Below, in pieces: positions 7,629 through 30,225 of a stretch of 32,678 bases of DNA (position 1 is the stretch's first letter; every line of letters begins with the position of its first letter). Source of the DNA: Gammaproteobacteria bacterium (GTDB lineage Bacteria > Pseudomonadota > Gammaproteobacteria > Ga0077536). The stretch spans positions 1 to 32,678 of the forward strand of contig JAURMM010000064.1 of assembly GCA_030830685.1 (NCBI GenBank). The letters run 5' to 3'. Made by a program: the position numbers and the translations under genes. The notes beneath the pieces were generated by a model. The model was given only the letters and a program-made list of their open reading frames with translations, was not told the DNA's origin and made no database searches.

Positions 7629-7685
7629 TGTCAATCTAAGTTGACGTTCATTCTGTTTGACATGCACGAGTGACGTCGGGATCAT
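7629..7685. promoter_or_regulatory. Divergent bchF / aerR promoter region with two overlapping PpsR-like boxes
   Basis: Two 18-base sequences each match the known PpsR/CrtJ box TGT-N12-ACA at 5 of 6 positions: 7629-7646 (TGT...ACG) and 7645-7662 (CGT...ACA), sharing two bases. For bchF (minus) a -35 TTGACA at 7634-7629 forms the end of the first box, with a weak -10 (TACGCT) 18 bases on. For aerR (plus) a -35 TTGACA at 7657-7662 forms the end of the second box, with GATCAT at 7680-7685 after a 17-base spacer. A dyad CGGGAT-C-ATCCCG lies at 7677-7689 over the aerR -10. Promoter assignments are by eye. The rest of 7573-7862 shows nothing else I can name. Confidence 0.6.
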
Positions 7686-8810: not shown

Positions 8811-10217
8811 TTGAAGCACTCACTCGCCACTCTCGATGGCAAGGCAGCAAGCTCCTTGCTGACTGCCGTATCGGATATCACCCTGCTGCTCGACAAATCC
8901 GGGCGTATTCTCGACGTTTCATTGGGCAATCCTGAGTTGTCCGCACTGGATACCAAAAGCTGGCTGGGCAAGCAGTGGGTAGACACGGTCACGGTTGAGA
9001 GCCGTGACAAGATCGTCCTGCTGCTGAAGGAGCGGGCCACCAAAAATGCGCGCTGGCGTCAAGTCAATCATCCCGTTGGTACAGGTCAAGCTGACTTCCC
9101 GATGCTCTATCGCACGGGAGGTGTGGGCACTCAGGGACTGATCGTAGCAATGGGGCGTGACCTGCGGGCCGCCGCAGCGCTGCAACAGAAACTGCTGGAA
9201 GCCCAGCAAGCTTTGGAAGACGACTATGCCCGCCTGCGCCAGGTCGACACCCGCTATCGACTGCTTTTCCAGACCACCGCAGAAGCAGTGATCGTTGCCG
9301 ATGCCACGTCTGGTGTAGTGTCCGAGGCCAACCCGGCAGCAGCCCAGCTCCTGGGCCGCTCAGGCAAAAAGGTCATAGGCTTGGCGCTGAGCGAACTGAT
9401 GTCAGGCCCGGGCTCAAAGATGTTGCAGGGATTGCTGGACACCGTACGGGCCACCGGTCGCAGCGAAAAAGTCCGCATAACGCTCGGACGAGGTGCCGGA
9501 AGGCGCGAGTTTACGGTCTCCAGTTCGCTGTTCCGACAGGAGAACATCGCACATGTGCTGCTGCGCCTCGCACCGGTGGATCTGCGTCCTGTGCTGGAGA
9601 AAACCACGCCACCTGCCCAGCAACTGACACAGCTGATGGACCGCTTCCCCGACGGGTTCGTGGTGACGGATCCTGCAGGACAGATTGTTGCCGCCAACAA
9701 CGCTTTTCTCGACGCGGCAGAGCTCGGTACTTTCGAGCAGGCACGCGGCAAGTCGCTCGATCGCTGGCTCGGTCGCTCTCCGGTCGACGTGCGCGTGCTT
9801 CTGTCCAACCTTCAGCAGCATGGCGTGGTGCGGCACTTCTCAAGCGTGCTCAGCGGGGAGTTCGGCGCCAGCATGGACGTGGAGGTTTCTGCGGTTTCAG
9901 CGCTGAACGCCGAAACCCCCAGCCTGGCGTTCATGCTGAGGGACATGCGACGCGTCGCCGGGCGTGATGGCGCCCGCACCCCGCATCTGGCGGCCCCCGT
10001 GGAACAGTTGACGGAACTCATCGGCCGAGTCTCGCTCAAGGAGCTGGTTCGCGAATCGACTGACATGATTGAACGACTGTGCATCGAAGCTGCCCTCGAG
10101 CTGACCGGAGACAACCGTGCATCCGCAGCGGAAATGCTCGGACTGAGCCGGCAGAGCCTGTACATCAAGCTCAGGCGCCATGGTCTGGGCGATCTCGAGT
10201 CCGGCAACGAAGCCTGA
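8811..10217 (+). CDS. ppsR: Transcriptional regulator PpsR/CrtJ
   Basis: Redox- and light-dependent repressor (sometimes activator) of bch, crt and puc genes; it binds pairs of TGT-N12-ACA. The protein has 468 residues. It shows an N-terminal domain with WVDTVTVESRDK, two PAS domains (about residues 150-260 and 275-390, the second beginning MDRFPDGFVVTDPAG), and a C-terminal Fis-type helix-turn-helix (RASAAEMLGLSRQSLYIKLRRHG). The only cysteine is Cys424, in ERLCIEAALELTG, at the place of CrtJ Cys420. There is no ATG in the first 97 codons; homology to PpsR starts at once, so the TTG at 8811, six bases after the aerR stop, is the best start. It has no clear ribosome-binding site, so it probably depends on aerR translation. 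Confidence 0.95.
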   Translation: MKHSLATLDGKAASSLLTAVSDITLLLDKSGRILDVSLGNPELSALDTKSWLGKQWVDTVTVESRDKIVLLLKERATKNARWRQVNHPVGTGQADFPMLYRTGGVGTQGLIVAMGRDLRAAAALQQKLLEAQQALEDDYARLRQVDTRYRLLFQTTAEAVIVADATSGVVSEANPAAAQLLGRSGKKVIGLALSELMSGPGSKMLQGLLDTVRATGRSEKVRITLGRGAGRREFTVSSSLFRQENIAHVLLRLAPVDLRPVLEKTTPPAQQLTQLMDRFPDGFVVTDPAGQIVAANNAFLDAAELGTFEQARGKSLDRWLGRSPVDVRVLLSNLQQHGVVRHFSSVLSGEFGASMDVEVSAVSALNAETPSLAFMLRDMRRVAGRDGARTPHLAAPVEQLTELIGRVSLKELVRESTDMIERLCIEAALELTGDNRASAAEMLGLSRQSLYIKLRRHGLGDLESGNEA

Positions 10218-10272: not shown

Positions 10273-10313
10273 TGTAAATTTTGTTTGACGCTTGAAAGCG
10301 TCAAGCATAAATT
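10273..10313 (+). promoter_or_regulatory. bchG promoter with PpsR-like box and a 20-base dyad over the -35
   Basis: A good sigma-70-like promoter is visible: -35 TTGACG at 10285-10290, a 17-base spacer, and -10 TAAATT at 10308-10313. A PpsR-type box (TGT-N12-ACG, 5 of 6) spans 10273-10290 and ends in the -35. A separate near-perfect palindrome, TTGACGCTT-GA-AAGCGTCAA, spans 10285-10304, starting at the -35 and filling most of the spacer. Transcription would begin about 10319-10320, at or next to the GTG start of bchG. The rest of the ppsR-bchG gap (10218-10272) holds only short GC-rich inverted repeats. Confidence 0.6.
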
Positions 10314-10319
10314 GATGCC

Positions 10320-11186
10320 GTGTCGCGCCCTGGTTTCACTTCCGTAATCGAACTGCTGAAGCCGGTGACGTGGTTCCCGCCGATGTGGGCGTTTGCCTGC
10401 GGCGTGGTATCGACCGGCCAATCATTCGAAGGGCACTGGATTCTGGTGCTCACCGGCTTGCTGCTGACGGGTCCGCTGGTTTGCGGGACCAGCCAGGCTG
10501 TCAACGACTGGTTCGACCGGCATGTGGACGCCATCAACGAGCCGGGTCGGCCGATCCCCTCAGGTCGCATACCGGGACGATGGGGGTTGTATGTCGCTTG
10601 CGTGTGGACATTGCTCTCACTTGCCGTCGCTCCGGCACTCGGTCCGTGGGGCTTCGGTGCCACCGTACTTGCCCTGCTGCTCGCATGGGGCTACAGCGCT
10701 CCACCTTTCCGATTCAAACGCAACGGCTGGCTCGGCAACAGTGCTTGCGCGATCAGCTATGAGGGACTCGCCTGGGCCACAGGTGCTGCGGTCATGATGA
10801 ACGGCGTGATGCCGGAAAACAGGACGCTGGCGCTGGCTGCCCTCTACAGCGCGGGTGCTCACGGCATCATGACCCTCAACGATTTCAAGTCCGTACAGGG
10901 CGACCGCCAGTGCGGCATCGACTCGCTTCCAGTGCTACTCGGAATCTCCGGCGCCTGTCGTGTGGCTTGCCTGCTCATGGCGGCTGCCCAGCTGGTGGTG
11001 GTGAGCTTGCTGGCAGCCTGGGGGCACGCGCTGCATGCCGTGGGCGTGGGAGTGCTGCTGATGTTGCAGATTTTTCTGATGGTGCGCCTGTTGCGGGATC
11101 CCGTGGCACGCGCGACCTGGTACAGCGGATTCGGCGTCACGCTCTACGTTCTTGGCATGCTCTTGAGTGCATTCGCGCTGCGGTGA
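10320..11186 (+). CDS. bchG: Bacteriochlorophyll synthase (BchG)
   Basis: UbiA-family membrane prenyltransferase that esterifies bacteriochlorophyllide with geranylgeranyl or phytyl diphosphate. It has 288 residues, with N-terminal IELLKPVTWFPPMWAF as in the family. The first Asp-rich motif (NDWFDRHVDAINEPGRPIPSG, about residues 63-83) and the second (NDFKSVQGDRQCGIDSLP, about 190-207) are both present, as are about eight membrane segments. The start is a GTG at 10320: an in-frame TAA precedes it at 10308-10310, the next in-frame ATG would remove conserved residues, and the ATG at 10315 is in another frame. No ribosome-binding site is seen. It is followed after 14 bases by an MFS gene and then bchP, an order known from other purple bacteria. 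Confidence 0.95.
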   Translation: MSRPGFTSVIELLKPVTWFPPMWAFACGVVSTGQSFEGHWILVLTGLLLTGPLVCGTSQAVNDWFDRHVDAINEPGRPIPSGRIPGRWGLYVACVWTLLSLAVAPALGPWGFGATVLALLLAWGYSAPPFRFKRNGWLGNSACAISYEGLAWATGAAVMMNGVMPENRTLALAALYSAGAHGIMTLNDFKSVQGDRQCGIDSLPVLLGISGACRVACLLMAAAQLVVVSLLAAWGHALHAVGVGVLLMLQIFLMVRLLRDPVARATWYSGFGVTLYVLGMLLSAFALR

Positions 11187-11200
11187 AGGAGAAAGCTCTT

Positions 11201-12532
11201 ATGGCAACGACCCTGGGTTGGCTGGGAATCATTCGTTTGGGGTTGGTCCAGACCGCACTGGGCGCGATGGTGGTGCTGGCAACCTCCACCTTCAACCGGG
11301 TGATGGTCGTGGAGCTGGCCTTGCCGGCCATGCTGCCCGGCCTGCTGGTCGCGGTGCACTACGTGACCCAGATCTTTCGCCCGCGCATGGGCTACGGCTC
11401 CGATGTGGGTGGTCGCAGTACTCCCTGGATACTCGGTGGAATGACTATGCTCGGGGCTGCCACGGTGGCCGCCGCAGTGGCGACGACCCAGCTGGCCCAC
11501 AGCGTCATGCTCGGAACGATCATGGCCATGATCGCCTATTTCGCGATCGGCCTCGGGGTCGGTGCCGCCGGCACTTCCTTGCTCGTCCTGCTTGCCAAGC
11601 GCGTAGACCCGGGCCGCAGGGCCGCGGCTGCGAGCGTGGTCTGGCTCATGATGATTGCGGGCTTCGCTGTCACTGCAACGCTCGCCGGCAAATTCCTCGA
11701 CCCTTATACGCCCATCCGTTTGGTGGAGGTGACGGCGAGTGTGGTGGCCATGGCACTGACCGTGACCTTCGCCGCAGTCTTTGGCCTTGAGAAACACGCG
11801 CTGCCTGCCACGCTCGTCGAGACGGCGGCCGTTCAGACGCCCAAGGTCCCCTTCCTCACCGCGTTGGCCCAGGTCTGGGCCGAACCTGAGGCACGGCGCT
11901 TCACCATTTTCGTGTTCATCTCGATGCTCGCCTACAGCGCGCAGGATCTGATTCTGGAGCCTTTTGCAGGCGTGGTCTTCGAGTATACGGTCGGCCAATC
12001 GACCAGCCTGTCCGGGGTTCAGCACCAAGGTGTGTTCGTGGGCATGCTGGGTGTAGCGGTGCTCTGCAGCTACTTCAAGAACAGCTGGCTGGGCTCGCTG
12101 AAGATGTGGACGGTGACCGGCTGTCTCGCATCGGCGGCTGCCCTGTGGGCGATTTCGCTCGCAAGCCTGGTCGGACCGGACTGGCCTTTGCGTCTCACGG
12201 TACTCCTGCTCGGCGCGTCCAATGGTGCATTTGCCGTGGCGGCCATCGGCTCGATGATGGCCAATGCAGGACAGGGCACCGCGGCACGGGAGGGTGTACG
12301 CATGGGTCTGTGGGGTGCTGCACAAGCCTTTGCCTTCGGGCTGGGAGGCTTCGCAGGGACTGCTGCGAGCGACATCGCGCATGCGCTGCTCTCGTCACCG
12401 GCCCAGGCTTATGCGGTGGTGTTTGGCCTGGAAGGGATACTGTTCCTTCTCTCCGCGATCATCGCGGGTCAGCTCACTGTCTCCACCCTGCAAGCACGAC
12501 GCATGAAGACAAGCAGCACTGCCTACACCTGA
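11201..12532 (+). CDS. BCD-family (PucC/LhaA-like) MFS transporter
   Basis: Twelve-helix membrane protein of the bacteriochlorophyll-delivery branch of the major facilitator superfamily (PucC, LhaA, and the Rhodobacter orf428 found between bchG and bchP). Members are thought to help assemble light-harvesting complexes, possibly by handling pigment. There are 443 residues from the ATG at 11201, which follows AAGGAG at 11186-11191 with a 9-base spacer; the frame stays open further upstream inside bchG, but that part overlaps a real gene. The motif GYGSDVGGRSTPWILGG near residues 63-79 is the family's loop 2-3 signature. The position bchG-this gene-bchP matches orf428 better than lhaA, which in related clusters sits next to bchM and puhA. 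Confidence 0.9.
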   Translation: MATTLGWLGIIRLGLVQTALGAMVVLATSTFNRVMVVELALPAMLPGLLVAVHYVTQIFRPRMGYGSDVGGRSTPWILGGMTMLGAATVAAAVATTQLAHSVMLGTIMAMIAYFAIGLGVGAAGTSLLVLLAKRVDPGRRAAAASVVWLMMIAGFAVTATLAGKFLDPYTPIRLVEVTASVVAMALTVTFAAVFGLEKHALPATLVETAAVQTPKVPFLTALAQVWAEPEARRFTIFVFISMLAYSAQDLILEPFAGVVFEYTVGQSTSLSGVQHQGVFVGMLGVAVLCSYFKNSWLGSLKMWTVTGCLASAAALWAISLASLVGPDWPLRLTVLLLGASNGAFAVAAIGSMMANAGQGTAAREGVRMGLWGAAQAFAFGLGGFAGTAASDIAHALLSSPAQAYAVVFGLEGILFLLSAIIAGQLTVSTLQARRMKTSSTAYT

Positions 12533-12562: not shown

Positions 12563-13756
12563 ATGGAACAGCAGAAGATTCTTGATGCCGTTGTTGTAGG
12601 AGGCGGGCCGGCTGGCGCCACGGCGGCCGCCGATCTGGCGGCTCGAGGTCTGCGCGTAATGCTGATGGATCGCGCGGGGCGGATTAAACCCTGTGGAGGT
12701 GCGGTTCCGCCGCAGCTGCTGCGCGAATTCGACATACCGGAGCACCTGCTGGTCGCACACGCCACGCGAGCCTGTATCGTGTCGCCCACGTTGCGTGAAG
12801 TGGACATGCCGATCTCCAAGGGCGGGTTTGTCGGCATGGTCGATCGCGATACTTTCGATGAGTGGCTGCGCCAACGGGCAGAGGCCCGGGGGGCAATTCG
12901 TGTCGAGGGGCTTTTCAAAGGCAGTCGCCAGGAAACGGATGGCAGTCTGACCTTGCAGTATCAGCAGAAGGACGGCGAGATCCGTGAAGTGAGCACCCGT
13001 GCACTGATTGGTGCGGATGGAGCCTCCTCGCGCGTAGCGAAGGAAAACATTCCCGGCGCGGACCAGCTTGAATGCGTGTACGCCTACCACGAAGTCATCC
13101 GCACACCCGATCCCGCGTGCATGCCTGCTTTTGATGGAACACGCTGCGACGTGCATTATCGCGGCACGATTTCACCTGATTTTTATGGTTGGGTCTTTCC
13201 CCATGGAGACAGGATAAGCGTTGGCAGCGGAAGTGCGCACAAAGGGTTCTCCCTGCGTGGATCTGTGTCCCGACTCCGCGCCGATACCGGTCTGGCCGAG
13301 GCGGAAACCCTGCGTCGCGAGGGCGCGCCGATTCCGCTCAAGCCCCTCCCCCGCTGGGACAATGGCCGGAATGTGGTGCTGGCCGGCGATGCTGCGGGCG
13401 TGGTGGCACCGGCATCAGGTGAGGGCATCTATTACGCGATGACCGGTGGCCGGTTGGCGGCAGATGCCGTCAGTGTGTTTCTGCAGAGCGGCAACCCCCG
13501 TGCGCTGGGCCTTGCACGCAAGAGATTCATGAAAGCCCATGGCCGTGTGTTCTGGGTGCTCGGCATGATGCAGCGCTTCTGGTACCGCAATGACAAGCGT
13601 CGCGAGCGCTTCGTCAGTATGTGTCGGGACCGCGACGTGCAGGAATTGACGTGGGAGGCTTATCTGAACAAGCGGCTGGTCCGCGCCAAGCCTCTCGCGC
13701 ATGCACGGATTTTCTTCAAGGACATGGCCCATCTCATGGGCCTTGTCGCCCCATGA
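12563..13756 (+). CDS. bchP: Geranylgeranyl diphosphate/bacteriochlorophyll reductase (BchP)
   Basis: Flavoprotein that reduces the geranylgeranyl tail of bacteriochlorophyll to phytyl. It has 397 residues. It shows an N-terminal FAD-binding fold (VVVGGGPAGATAA, residues 10-22), the family motif KPCGGAVPP near residue 42, and a second flavin motif NVVLAGDAAGVVAPASGEGI at about residues 271-290. The ATG at 12563 follows GAGGGAG with an 8-base spacer. It probably belongs to one operon with bchG and the MFS gene (30-base gap). Nothing is missing. Confidence 0.95.
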   Translation: MEQQKILDAVVVGGGPAGATAAADLAARGLRVMLMDRAGRIKPCGGAVPPQLLREFDIPEHLLVAHATRACIVSPTLREVDMPISKGGFVGMVDRDTFDEWLRQRAEARGAIRVEGLFKGSRQETDGSLTLQYQQKDGEIREVSTRALIGADGASSRVAKENIPGADQLECVYAYHEVIRTPDPACMPAFDGTRCDVHYRGTISPDFYGWVFPHGDRISVGSGSAHKGFSLRGSVSRLRADTGLAEAETLRREGAPIPLKPLPRWDNGRNVVLAGDAAGVVAPASGEGIYYAMTGGRLAADAVSVFLQSGNPRALGLARKRFMKAHGRVFWVLGMMQRFWYRNDKRRERFVSMCRDRDVQELTWEAYLNKRLVRAKPLAHARIFFKDMAHLMGLVAP

Positions 13757-22943: not shown

Positions 22944-22987
22944 TGTCAGTTTAGATATACGTCAGTCTTTGTCAACTAAGGTTTACA
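22944..22987 (-). promoter_or_regulatory. bchC promoter with tandem PpsR boxes 8 bases apart
   Basis: Box A at 22944-22961 is TGT-N12-ACG (5 of 6), and box B at 22970-22987 is a perfect TGT-N12-ACA. Exactly 8 bases separate them, the arrangement known for the CrtJ-bound bchC promoter of Rhodobacter capsulatus. On the minus strand a -35 TTGACA (22975-22970) forms the end of box B, and TAAACT follows after 16 bases, inside box A, as a possible -10. Box B starts 8 bases past the crtF stop. Confidence 0.75.
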
Positions 22988-25040: not shown

Positions 25041-25084
25041 TGTGCAAATTTTTTTACTTGTGCATGTGTCAATCAAAATAGACA
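25041..25084. promoter_or_regulatory. Divergent crtE/crtD control region with tandem PpsR boxes 8 bases apart
   Basis: Box 1 at 25067-25084 is a perfect TGTC-N10-GACA dyad. Box 2 at 25041-25058 is TGT-N12-ACT (5 of 6). The gap is 8 bases, as at bchC. On the minus strand TTGACA (25072-25067) forms the end of box 1 and could be the crtE -35; a clear -10 is not seen for either gene. The intergenic stretch is AT-rich compared with its surroundings. Confidence 0.7.
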
Positions 25085-28687: not shown

Positions 28688-30194
28688 CGGGGACCACGCT
28701 GTCGAGTATTCGCGCCGAGGACAATACCCCCGGCAAACCGGCGCCCGGATGGGTTCCGGCGCCCACGAGATAGAGGTTCTTCACGTCTTCGCTGCGATTG
28801 TGTGGCCGGAACCAGGCACTCTGGGTGAAGCGGGGTTCAAGACCGAAACCTGCGCCGCGGAAGGATAGAAACTGATTCTCGAAATCCGGGGGCGTCGTGA
28901 TCCAGGAAGTTGCCAGCCTGTCCTCGAGTCCCGGCAGCACCGTCGCTGAAAGTTCGCGCGCAATCCTTGCCCGATAGGTCTCCCGCAAGTCACTCCAGTC
29001 GATACCGCTTTCGGTATTGGGCACCGGCGAAAGGACATAAAAGGTGTCGCAACCCGGAGGTGCCAGGGACGGGTCGGTTGCAGTCGGGCGGTGCAGATAC
29101 AGACTGAAATCGTCCGCCAGAATCTTGCGGTCAAAGATGTCTTCCAGCAGTTCGCGATAACGCGGCCCCAACAACAGCATGTGGTGAGGGACATCCTCAT
29201 AGCGACCCCGGGTACCGAAGTACCACACGAAAAGCCCCATGGAATAATGCGAGCGCTCTATTTTTTTGTCCGTCCAGCGGCGCCGCGCGTGGGCAGGTAC
29301 CAGGTGCCGGTATGTCCAGGCAGAGTCTGCATTGGATACGACGATATCGGCGTGAATCTCTTCGCCGGAAGCCAGGCGCACGCCAGTGGCCCGTCCTCCA
29401 TCGACAAGGATTGTCGCGACATCGGCGCCGGTCCGAAGCGTGTTTCCTTGCCCCTCGATGAGCTTGGCCATCCCGTTGACCAGACTGCCGGTGCCTCCCA
29501 TCGCGAAATGCACACCCCAAGCGCGTTCAAGATGCGCGATCAGTGCGTAAACGGCCGTGACCGAGAACGGATTCCCCCCCACCAGCAACGGGTGATAGCT
29601 CAGGATCGTGCGCAGCCGCGGATCGCGGACGTGCTTTGCCACCAGGCCATGCACGGTTCGATAGCTTTGCAGGCGGATCAGCTCCGGCACTGCACGCAGC
29701 ATGGTGGCCCAGTTGTCGAACGGAACATGGCCGAGTTTTTCGAAGCCGGTACGGTAGATCGCTTCGCTCAACTGCATGAAGCGTTCGTAGCCGGCAACAT
29801 CGTCCGGCGCCAAACGTGCGACTTCATCGCGCATGGCCGCCGGGTCGCCGCTGTAGTTGAAGGTTTCTCCGCTGTCGAAACGAATGCGGTAGAAGGGATC
29901 GAGCGCACGCAGTTCGACGTCGTCCTCAAAGCGTCGACCGCACAGTTGCCAAAGTTCCTTGAAGAGGAACGGTGCGGTGATGATCGTGGGGCCGCTGTCG
30001 AAGGTGAATCCGTCCTGCTTGCGCACCCAGGCCCGCCCTCCCGGCACTGCACAGCGCTCCAGCACCGTCACGCGATAGCCGCGTGCACCGAGTCGAATCG
30101 CGGCTGCGAGTCCACCAAAGCCACTGCCAATCACCACAGCGTGCGCCGTGTGGCCAGGCTGACCCGGGGGCGATGAGGTGAGAGATGTCAACAT
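28668..30194 (-). CDS. crtI: Phytoene desaturase (CrtI)
   Basis: FAD-dependent desaturase converting phytoene to neurosporene or lycopene; the number of steps cannot be told from sequence. There are 508 residues from the ATG at 30194. It shows VVIGSGFGGLAAAIRLGARGY near residues 21-41, DSGPTIITAPFLFKELW, and the C-terminal LYLVGAGTHPGAGLPGVLSSAR. The frame is open up to 30344, but that part runs into bchD and contains the dyad at 30202-30225. No clear ribosome-binding site is seen before the ATG. It is followed by crtB with a 20-base overlap and preceded by bchD after 61 bases. Confidence 0.94.
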   Translation of the reverse strand: MLTSLTSSPPGQPGHTAHAVVIGSGFGGLAAAIRLGARGYRVTVLERCAVPGGRAWVRKQDGFTFDSGPTIITAPFLFKELWQLCGRRFEDDVELRALDPFYRIRFDSGETFNYSGDPAAMRDEVARLAPDDVAGYERFMQLSEAIYRTGFEKLGHVPFDNWATMLRAVPELIRLQSYRTVHGLVAKHVRDPRLRTILSYHPLLVGGNPFSVTAVYALIAHLERAWGVHFAMGGTGSLVNGMAKLIEGQGNTLRTGADVATILVDGGRATGVRLASGEEIHADIVVSNADSAWTYRHLVPAHARRRWTDKKIERSHYSMGLFVWYFGTRGRYEDVPHHMLLLGPRYRELLEDIFDRKILADDFSLYLHRPTATDPSLAPPGCDTFYVLSPVPNTESGIDWSDLRETYRARIARELSATVLPGLEDRLATSWITTPPDFENQFLSFRGAGFGLEPRFTQSAWFRPHNRSEDVKNLYLVGAGTHPGAGLPGVLSSARILDSVVPDVRLTA

Positions 30195-30201
30195 TGCTGG
30201 A

Positions 30202-30225
30202 CACTGTAACATTTTTTTTACAGTG
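30202..30225. promoter_or_regulatory. PpsR-type dyad just upstream of crtI
   Basis: A perfect TGT-N12-ACA lies at 30205-30222 inside a longer inverted repeat, CACTGTAA at 30202-30209 and TTACAGTG at 30218-30225. The centre is only about 20 bases before the crtI ATG, too close for a usual -35 position. The run of T/A in the loop makes the mRNA side poly-A, so a rho-independent terminator on the minus strand is unlikely. Confidence 0.6.

Follow-up and report, generated by a model that had tools for sequence, protein, structure and literature searches.

It is proposed that bchG in this gammaproteobacterial DNA is transcribed from a sigma-70-type promoter that sits inside a PpsR operator of the bchC type and is fused to the start codon, the mRNA of the bchG-pucC-bchP operon being leaderless; we put the probability of this reading at about 0.78. 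The window is the whole stretch that was analysed, 32,678 nt in length. The upper PpsR box would cover the -35 hexamer, and 8 bp further on, in the spacer, would lie the left half of a degenerate second box, the missing right half of which would cover the end of the -10 hexamer and the bases before the start codon. PpsR on this operator would block RNA polymerase under repressing conditions, which in known species are oxygen and light, acting with a B12-binding AerR/PpaA partner like the one that may be encoded upstream. With repression lifted, transcription would start at the start codon or no more than about 3 nt from it, and the resulting leaderless bchG mRNA would be translated without a Shine-Dalgarno sequence. 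PpsR-controlled promoters are textbook knowledge, and bacteriochlorophyll synthesis is dangerous in the presence of oxygen and light. The operator type is likewise known already; its fusion to a start codon in a broad array of species is, within the scope of our searches, apparently undescribed, and no report of a conserved leaderless bchG was found in the open-licence literature, which was screened by titles and abstract starts.

The genes and sites concerned are collected in Table 1. The ppsR gene is the only match above the TIGR02040 cut-off in its own genome, which is 90.7% complete, and it is followed by bchG in the same direction after a gap of 102 nt. The pucC-like gene and bchP downstream are presumed to belong to the bchG operon. 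Upstream of ppsR-bchG lies a gene for a B12-binding protein (PF02310), a putative AerR/PpaA by its position. A TGT-N12-ACG box is also present between bchF and this gene (7629-7646), with a TTGAC on either strand.

Table 1. Features at and around the bchG promoter, with comparator operators in the window.
Feature	Positions	Strand	Evidence or remark
ppsR/crtJ, PAS domains and Fis-type HTH	8811..10217	+	TIGR02040, 467.5 bits (cut-off 275.4); PAS, HTH_8
Upper PpsR box, TGT-N12-ACG	10273..10290	+	-47..-30 with +1 at 10320
-35 hexamer TTGACG	10285..10290	+	scan; doubles as right half-site of the upper PpsR box
Dyad, 9-base arms	10285..10304	+	right half of upper box, 8 bp, left half of lower box; extra arm bases local
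Lower PpsR box, degenerate, CGT-N12-GAT	10299..10316	+	-21..-4 with +1 at 10320; spans the -10
-10 hexamer TAAATT	10308..10313	+	scan; A in 48/54 and T in 37/54 loci at the matching columns
Out-of-frame ATG, ten codons, then TAA (10345-10347)	10315..10347	+	missing in the sister species
Predicted transcription start, first base of the bchG GTG	10320	+	inferred from -10 spacing, bchC register and conservation
bchG, bacteriochlorophyll synthase, 288 aa	10320..11186	+	TIGR01476, 331.8 bits; NF005742, 401.8 bits
pucC-like gene	11201..12532	+	PF03209 on 11507-12532; ATG at 11201, frame 11204-12532 intact
bchP	12563..13756	+	TIGR02023
Tandem boxes (TGT-N12-ACA)-N8-(CGT-N12-ACA) before bchC (TIGR01202)	22944..22987	-	comparator
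Tandem boxes (TGT-N12-ACT)-N8-(TGT-N12-ACA) between polyprenyl synthase gene (crtE-like) and crtD	25041..25084	+	

Read directly from the sequence, the bchG promoter has a 17-nt spacer, and its -10 ends 6 nt ahead of the GTG, within the distance of about 6-8 nt at which a -10 precedes the start codon of leaderless mRNAs; no Shine-Dalgarno sequence stands before this GTG in the window. The sequence-only reading had placed the -35, the -10, the spacer, the GTG, the PpsR-like box and the dyad correctly to the base, and its count of exactly ten codons for the out-of-frame ATG holds as well. Many relatives have their own ATG or GTG start (residue 1) aligned with this GTG, and the sister species (L002/L013) has a GTG at the same place. 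In E. coli, GTG is a poor start codon for leaderless messages. A further GTG occupies the leaderless position in L113 (CGT-N12-ACA, GGC, GTG), the third such case beside L001 and L002. A promoter scan of 5.2 kb returned two predictions, one of them the bchG promoter, against a mean of 0.7 in shuffled sequence, so that the promoter motif alone is weak evidence; it is conservation across species that makes the arrangement more than chance. The sigma factor that reads this promoter is not certain, given that an RpoH-type sigma factor is needed for the puf, puh and bch operons of Roseateles (PMC10037100).

The upper box over the -35 agrees with TGT-N12-ACA at five of six core bases. A second box begins 8 bp downstream, as in bchC-type tandem operators, with a good left half (CGTCA, 10299-10303); as a full palindrome it is lacking in the window, where only two of its six core bases are present, and the window operator is thus one box and a half-site, not a full tandem. 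The other two tandem operators of the window, before bchC and next to crtD, both have the N8 spacing, and bchG has this layout of its own genome with the lower box reduced to its left half; counted in this register, the predicted leader of the window bchC is about 43 nt. Two exact TGT-N12-ACA boxes are also found at 30186-30203 and 30205-30222, 1 nt apart instead of the usual N7-N9, inside the annotated 5' part of a minus-strand crtI-like frame whose family match starts at residue 69.

Published operators resemble that of the window in several respects. The bchC promoter of R. capsulatus carries two CrtJ palindromes (TGT-N12-ACA) 8 bp apart, one at -47..-30 over the -35 and the other at -21..-4 over the -10 (PMC5362033). 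The window bchG boxes fall in this very register if +1 is 10320, which argues for a start at that base without resting on the -10 alone; unlike R. capsulatus bchC, the lower box at bchG has its left half only, and the predicted +1 is on the start codon. The portion of the R. capsulatus CrtJ ChIP-seq text that was available does not name bchG among the targets. In Rubrivivax gelatinosus, degenerate tandem PpsR sites precede crtI (N8) and pucB (N9), binding in vitro being redox-independent for the former spacing and redox-dependent for the latter; pucB has a TGT-N12-ACG box like the upper box of the window, crtI has a cGT half together with N8, and the main text makes no mention of bchG (PMC4452267). 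In the gammaproteobacterium Congregibacter litoralis, 12 of 15 putative PpsR sites are tandem at 7 or 8 nt, a spacing like that of the window, and adjacent palindromes overlap sigma-70-type promoters; bchG does not appear in that main text (PMC2654016).

Comparison with the bchG upstream regions of relatives, which had been proposed as a check alongside the sequence-only reading, shows that the upper box, the spacer half-site and the distance to the start codon recur. The survey comprised 87 loci, namely 88 bchG loci (L001-L008 and L013-L092) minus L013, the genome of which is that of L002. The window itself is one of the 87 (L001), two pairs (L014/L026 and L030/L037) are near-duplicates, and, as best BLAST hits with many Burkholderiales among them, the loci are not independent. 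A selection rule, an in-frame ATG or GTG 32-39 nt from a TTGAC, retained 66 of the 87, and dropping rows that shared 80% identity or more over 67 nt, with L001 kept, left 54 non-redundant loci. The offset from the -35 to the start codon in these is 34 nt in 2 loci, 35 in 22, 36 in 18, 37 in 10 and 38 in 2, so that 50 of 54 lie at 35-37; L032 is counted at 38 (GTG) by the rule, though it has an ATG at 35. Before this selection, the first in-frame ATG or GTG was at 34-37 nt for 58 of the 83 TTGAC occurrences that have one (69 of 87 loci). The T, G and T of the upper box, columns that lie outside the selection rule, are kept in 46, 53 and 53 of the 54 loci, and the aligned columns read gTGTAAAT, then TTGAC with A (36) or G (17) as the next base, then TGTCA in the spacer. 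This TGTCA matches at four or more of five bases in 39 of 54 loci and exactly in 30, at one position only, 8 bp after the box, and the right half of the lower box is not conserved across the 54. At L036 the codon that stands 6 nt after the -10, in frame and at the site expected for the leaderless ATG, is ATT, which may be a rare start codon or a lost start.

Counts against a background of the same patterns at shifted positions were made for 86 of these loci, L025 being truncated upstream. An upper box with TTGAC(A/G) or TGGAC(A/G) stands 45-50 nt before the start in 63 of the 86, the window included (background 0.027), the spacer half-site is correctly placed in 54 (0.217) and a strict -10 pattern in only 43 (0.151); a full lower box is found in 7, without excess over a background of 0.072. 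This lack of excess in the nearer set, together with the two of six core bases in the window, means that a second PpsR dimer may not bind at bchG. A second, phylum-wide set consisted of 28 of the 30 loci fetched for 31 matching genomes, L127 (the window) and L122 (the genome of L003) having been dropped, after which the two sets (86 and 28) have no overlap. Here 13 of 28 loci have a full lower box 20-23 nt ahead of the start (background 0.091), its left half is present in 19 (0.234) and the upper box in 14 (0.019), and a -10-like hexamer is found 6-8 nt before the start in 23 (0.138), being absent in L118, L119, L121, L124 and L129. Judged from these comparisons, the promoter, its overlap with a PpsR site and a bchG start on the promoter recur in many photosynthetic proteobacteria, in line with the earlier claims that bchG has its own promoter, the -35 of which is common to a PpsR box, and that its start codon is at the predicted transcription start. 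The selection rule failed in 21 of the 87 loci. Seven of these come from Thiocystis, Thiorhodococcus, Thiocapsa and a further record of the Chromatiaceae; the failures also include loci for which no upstream ppsR was found, the truncated L025, and L006, whose ATG is preceded by CGGAGG. In L008, which has no TTGAC, a full TGT-N12-ACA ends 3 nt before the ATG.

The start codon follows the promoter even where the protein changes length. In 17 of the 54 loci the start is 3-57 nt upstream in the protein alignment and is still 35-38 nt from TTGAC; L032 is an eighteenth shifted start, this one downstream and shifted only by the counting rule. The spacing between promoter and start codon is maintained as the BchG N-terminus varies in length. 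A Shine-Dalgarno core precedes 5 of 54 bchG starts against 24 of 31 bchP starts, with bchN (10/21), bchB (14/25) and bchF (12/27) in between, where the control starts are approximate, being the nearest ATG or GTG, and bchH yielded only one. The view that bchG has no ribosome-binding site thus extends from the window to its relatives, and a leaderless bchG message is well supported, if unproven, by these patterns.

A different reading would have bchG translated mainly from mRNA that reads through from ppsR, with the gap as a passive spacer or a minor extra promoter. The two genes are co-directional and only 102 nt apart, and a scan of the gap shows a single weak terminator-like stem of 5 pairs, both of which suit such read-through; the missing Shine-Dalgarno sequence before bchG and the joint movement of promoter and start codon between species speak against it, as does the listing of bchG-pucC-bchP as a PpsR-bound target operon in R. 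sphaeroides (PMC4344238). The promoter is, in addition, kept in L014, L021, L023, L026 and L058, where the ppsR stop is more than 1.6 kb away, and we regard read-through as the main source of BchG as unlikely. It would also be conceivable for the dyad to act in RNA, a hairpin in the read-through transcript hiding the bchG start codon. A 143-nt stretch of the window does fold at z -2.97 with the last two bases of the GUG paired, and the mean z over the 54 loci is -1.83; however, pairing of the start codon across these loci is 0.52, against 0.55 when the upstream part is shuffled, and palindromic operators alone would be expected to produce such stems. Such a start-hiding hairpin, present in the window and without enrichment of start-codon pairing in the 54 loci, was rejected as highly improbable.

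The dyad, TTGACGCTT-GA-AAGCGTCAA, had been taken in the sequence-only reading to be better than the PpsR box and as a possible site for a second regulator. The first of these claims is true of the window sequence; in the sister species seven of the nine arm pairs remain. The second proposal, an unrelated protein that competes with PpsR for the -35, draws on nine perfect arm bases, which are rare in a gap of this size: such a dyad occurs in 0.37% of 3000 shuffles of the 102-nt gap. Over the whole window the dyad is less remarkable, five perfect dyads (arms of at least 9, loop 0-6), two of which overlap, being present where 10 shuffles average 1.2. Covariation could be followed in five of the ten arm pairs, TTGAC being fixed by the selection rule, and the innermost pair is complementary in 23 of 54 loci against 14.0 in shuffles (p 0.005), the sole signal among the five testable; the pair adjoining TTGAC has a weak excess (31 against 26.9, p 0.09). 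Against a second regulator, the part of the arms that is conserved in relatives, TTGAC(A/G)...(T/C)GTCA, consists of PpsR half-site bases, with little or no conservation of the other arm bases, and the tandem PpsR boxes at the window bchC and beside crtD show this same N8 spacing. FNR sites have the form TTGAT-N4-ATCAA and RegA sites GCGNC...GNCGC, and by inspection the dyad matches neither pattern. A search of whole genomes for TGT-N8-ACA was uninformative. Given the pattern of conservation in relatives, the best interpretation of the dyad is a pair of PpsR half-sites 8 bp apart, the right one of the first box and the left one of the next, and a second regulator seems quite improbable. The earlier interpretation is corrected on this point: the inner half-sites of neighbouring PpsR boxes can mimic a separate operator.

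For the proposed PpsR control of the bchG operon, a published parallel is from R. sphaeroides. There PpsR targets bchG-pucC-bchP: a ChIP peak is listed at chr1 2005000-2005599 together with the motif TGTAAGGATAGATTGACACT, and expression differed 8-fold between a ppsR mutant and its parent, which was read as repression (PMC4344238). Among 394 genomes searched, which are a draw from a larger family, the published motif occurs in one, at 2005133, and because it lies at the published coordinate this genome (L135) is taken to be that of R. sphaeroides 2.4.1. Its bchG is on the opposite strand, with a stop four codons upstream of the ATG, and a CGT-N12-ACA box lies at -21..-4 of the ATG; the published motif starts at base 6 of bchG, which puts the ATG in the 8-bp gap between two boxes. 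The second of these boxes is within codons 2-8 of bchG. The order bchG-pucC-bchP is shared with the window, and the operon is PpsR-bound and repressed in R. sphaeroides (PMC4344238), but the start codon position between two boxes is unlike that of the window. The ATG is preceded by AGGTGA, which might act as a weak ribosome-binding site, and there is a GTG in the same frame 9 nt before the ATG; on sequence alone R. sphaeroides bchG is therefore not a clean leaderless case.

It is possible, and we hold it only tentatively, that the leaderless state of bchG is kept by selection across alpha-, beta- and gammaproteobacteria, which would tie translation to the PpsR-controlled promoter. Transcripts that run on from ppsR, having no ribosome-binding site before bchG, would then yield little BchG, and only transcripts that start at the operator would make enzyme. 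The start codon would form part of the operator-promoter module, and BchG N-termini would lengthen or shorten to follow it. A start codon fixed on its promoter over such a range would, if true, turn bchG into a broad predicted example of leaderless translation conserved among Proteobacteria.

A second gene may share this arrangement. Among 160 PpsR-box/-35 sites in the surveyed loci that do not belong to bchG, one more peak in the distance to the start codon was found, at 35-36 nt with 23 cases, and 21 of these 23 sites open a homologue of BchF (blastp against the window BchF), so that in many betaproteobacteria bchF seems to be leaderless much as bchG is. The window bchF, judged by inspection, is without the leaderless layout. 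In the betaproteobacterial layout, seen on the minus strand of L037, L038, L047, L048, L059 and others, a CGT-N12-ACA lies over the -35, and the -10 is often TAAATT or TAGATT, followed by 6-7 nt to the ATG.
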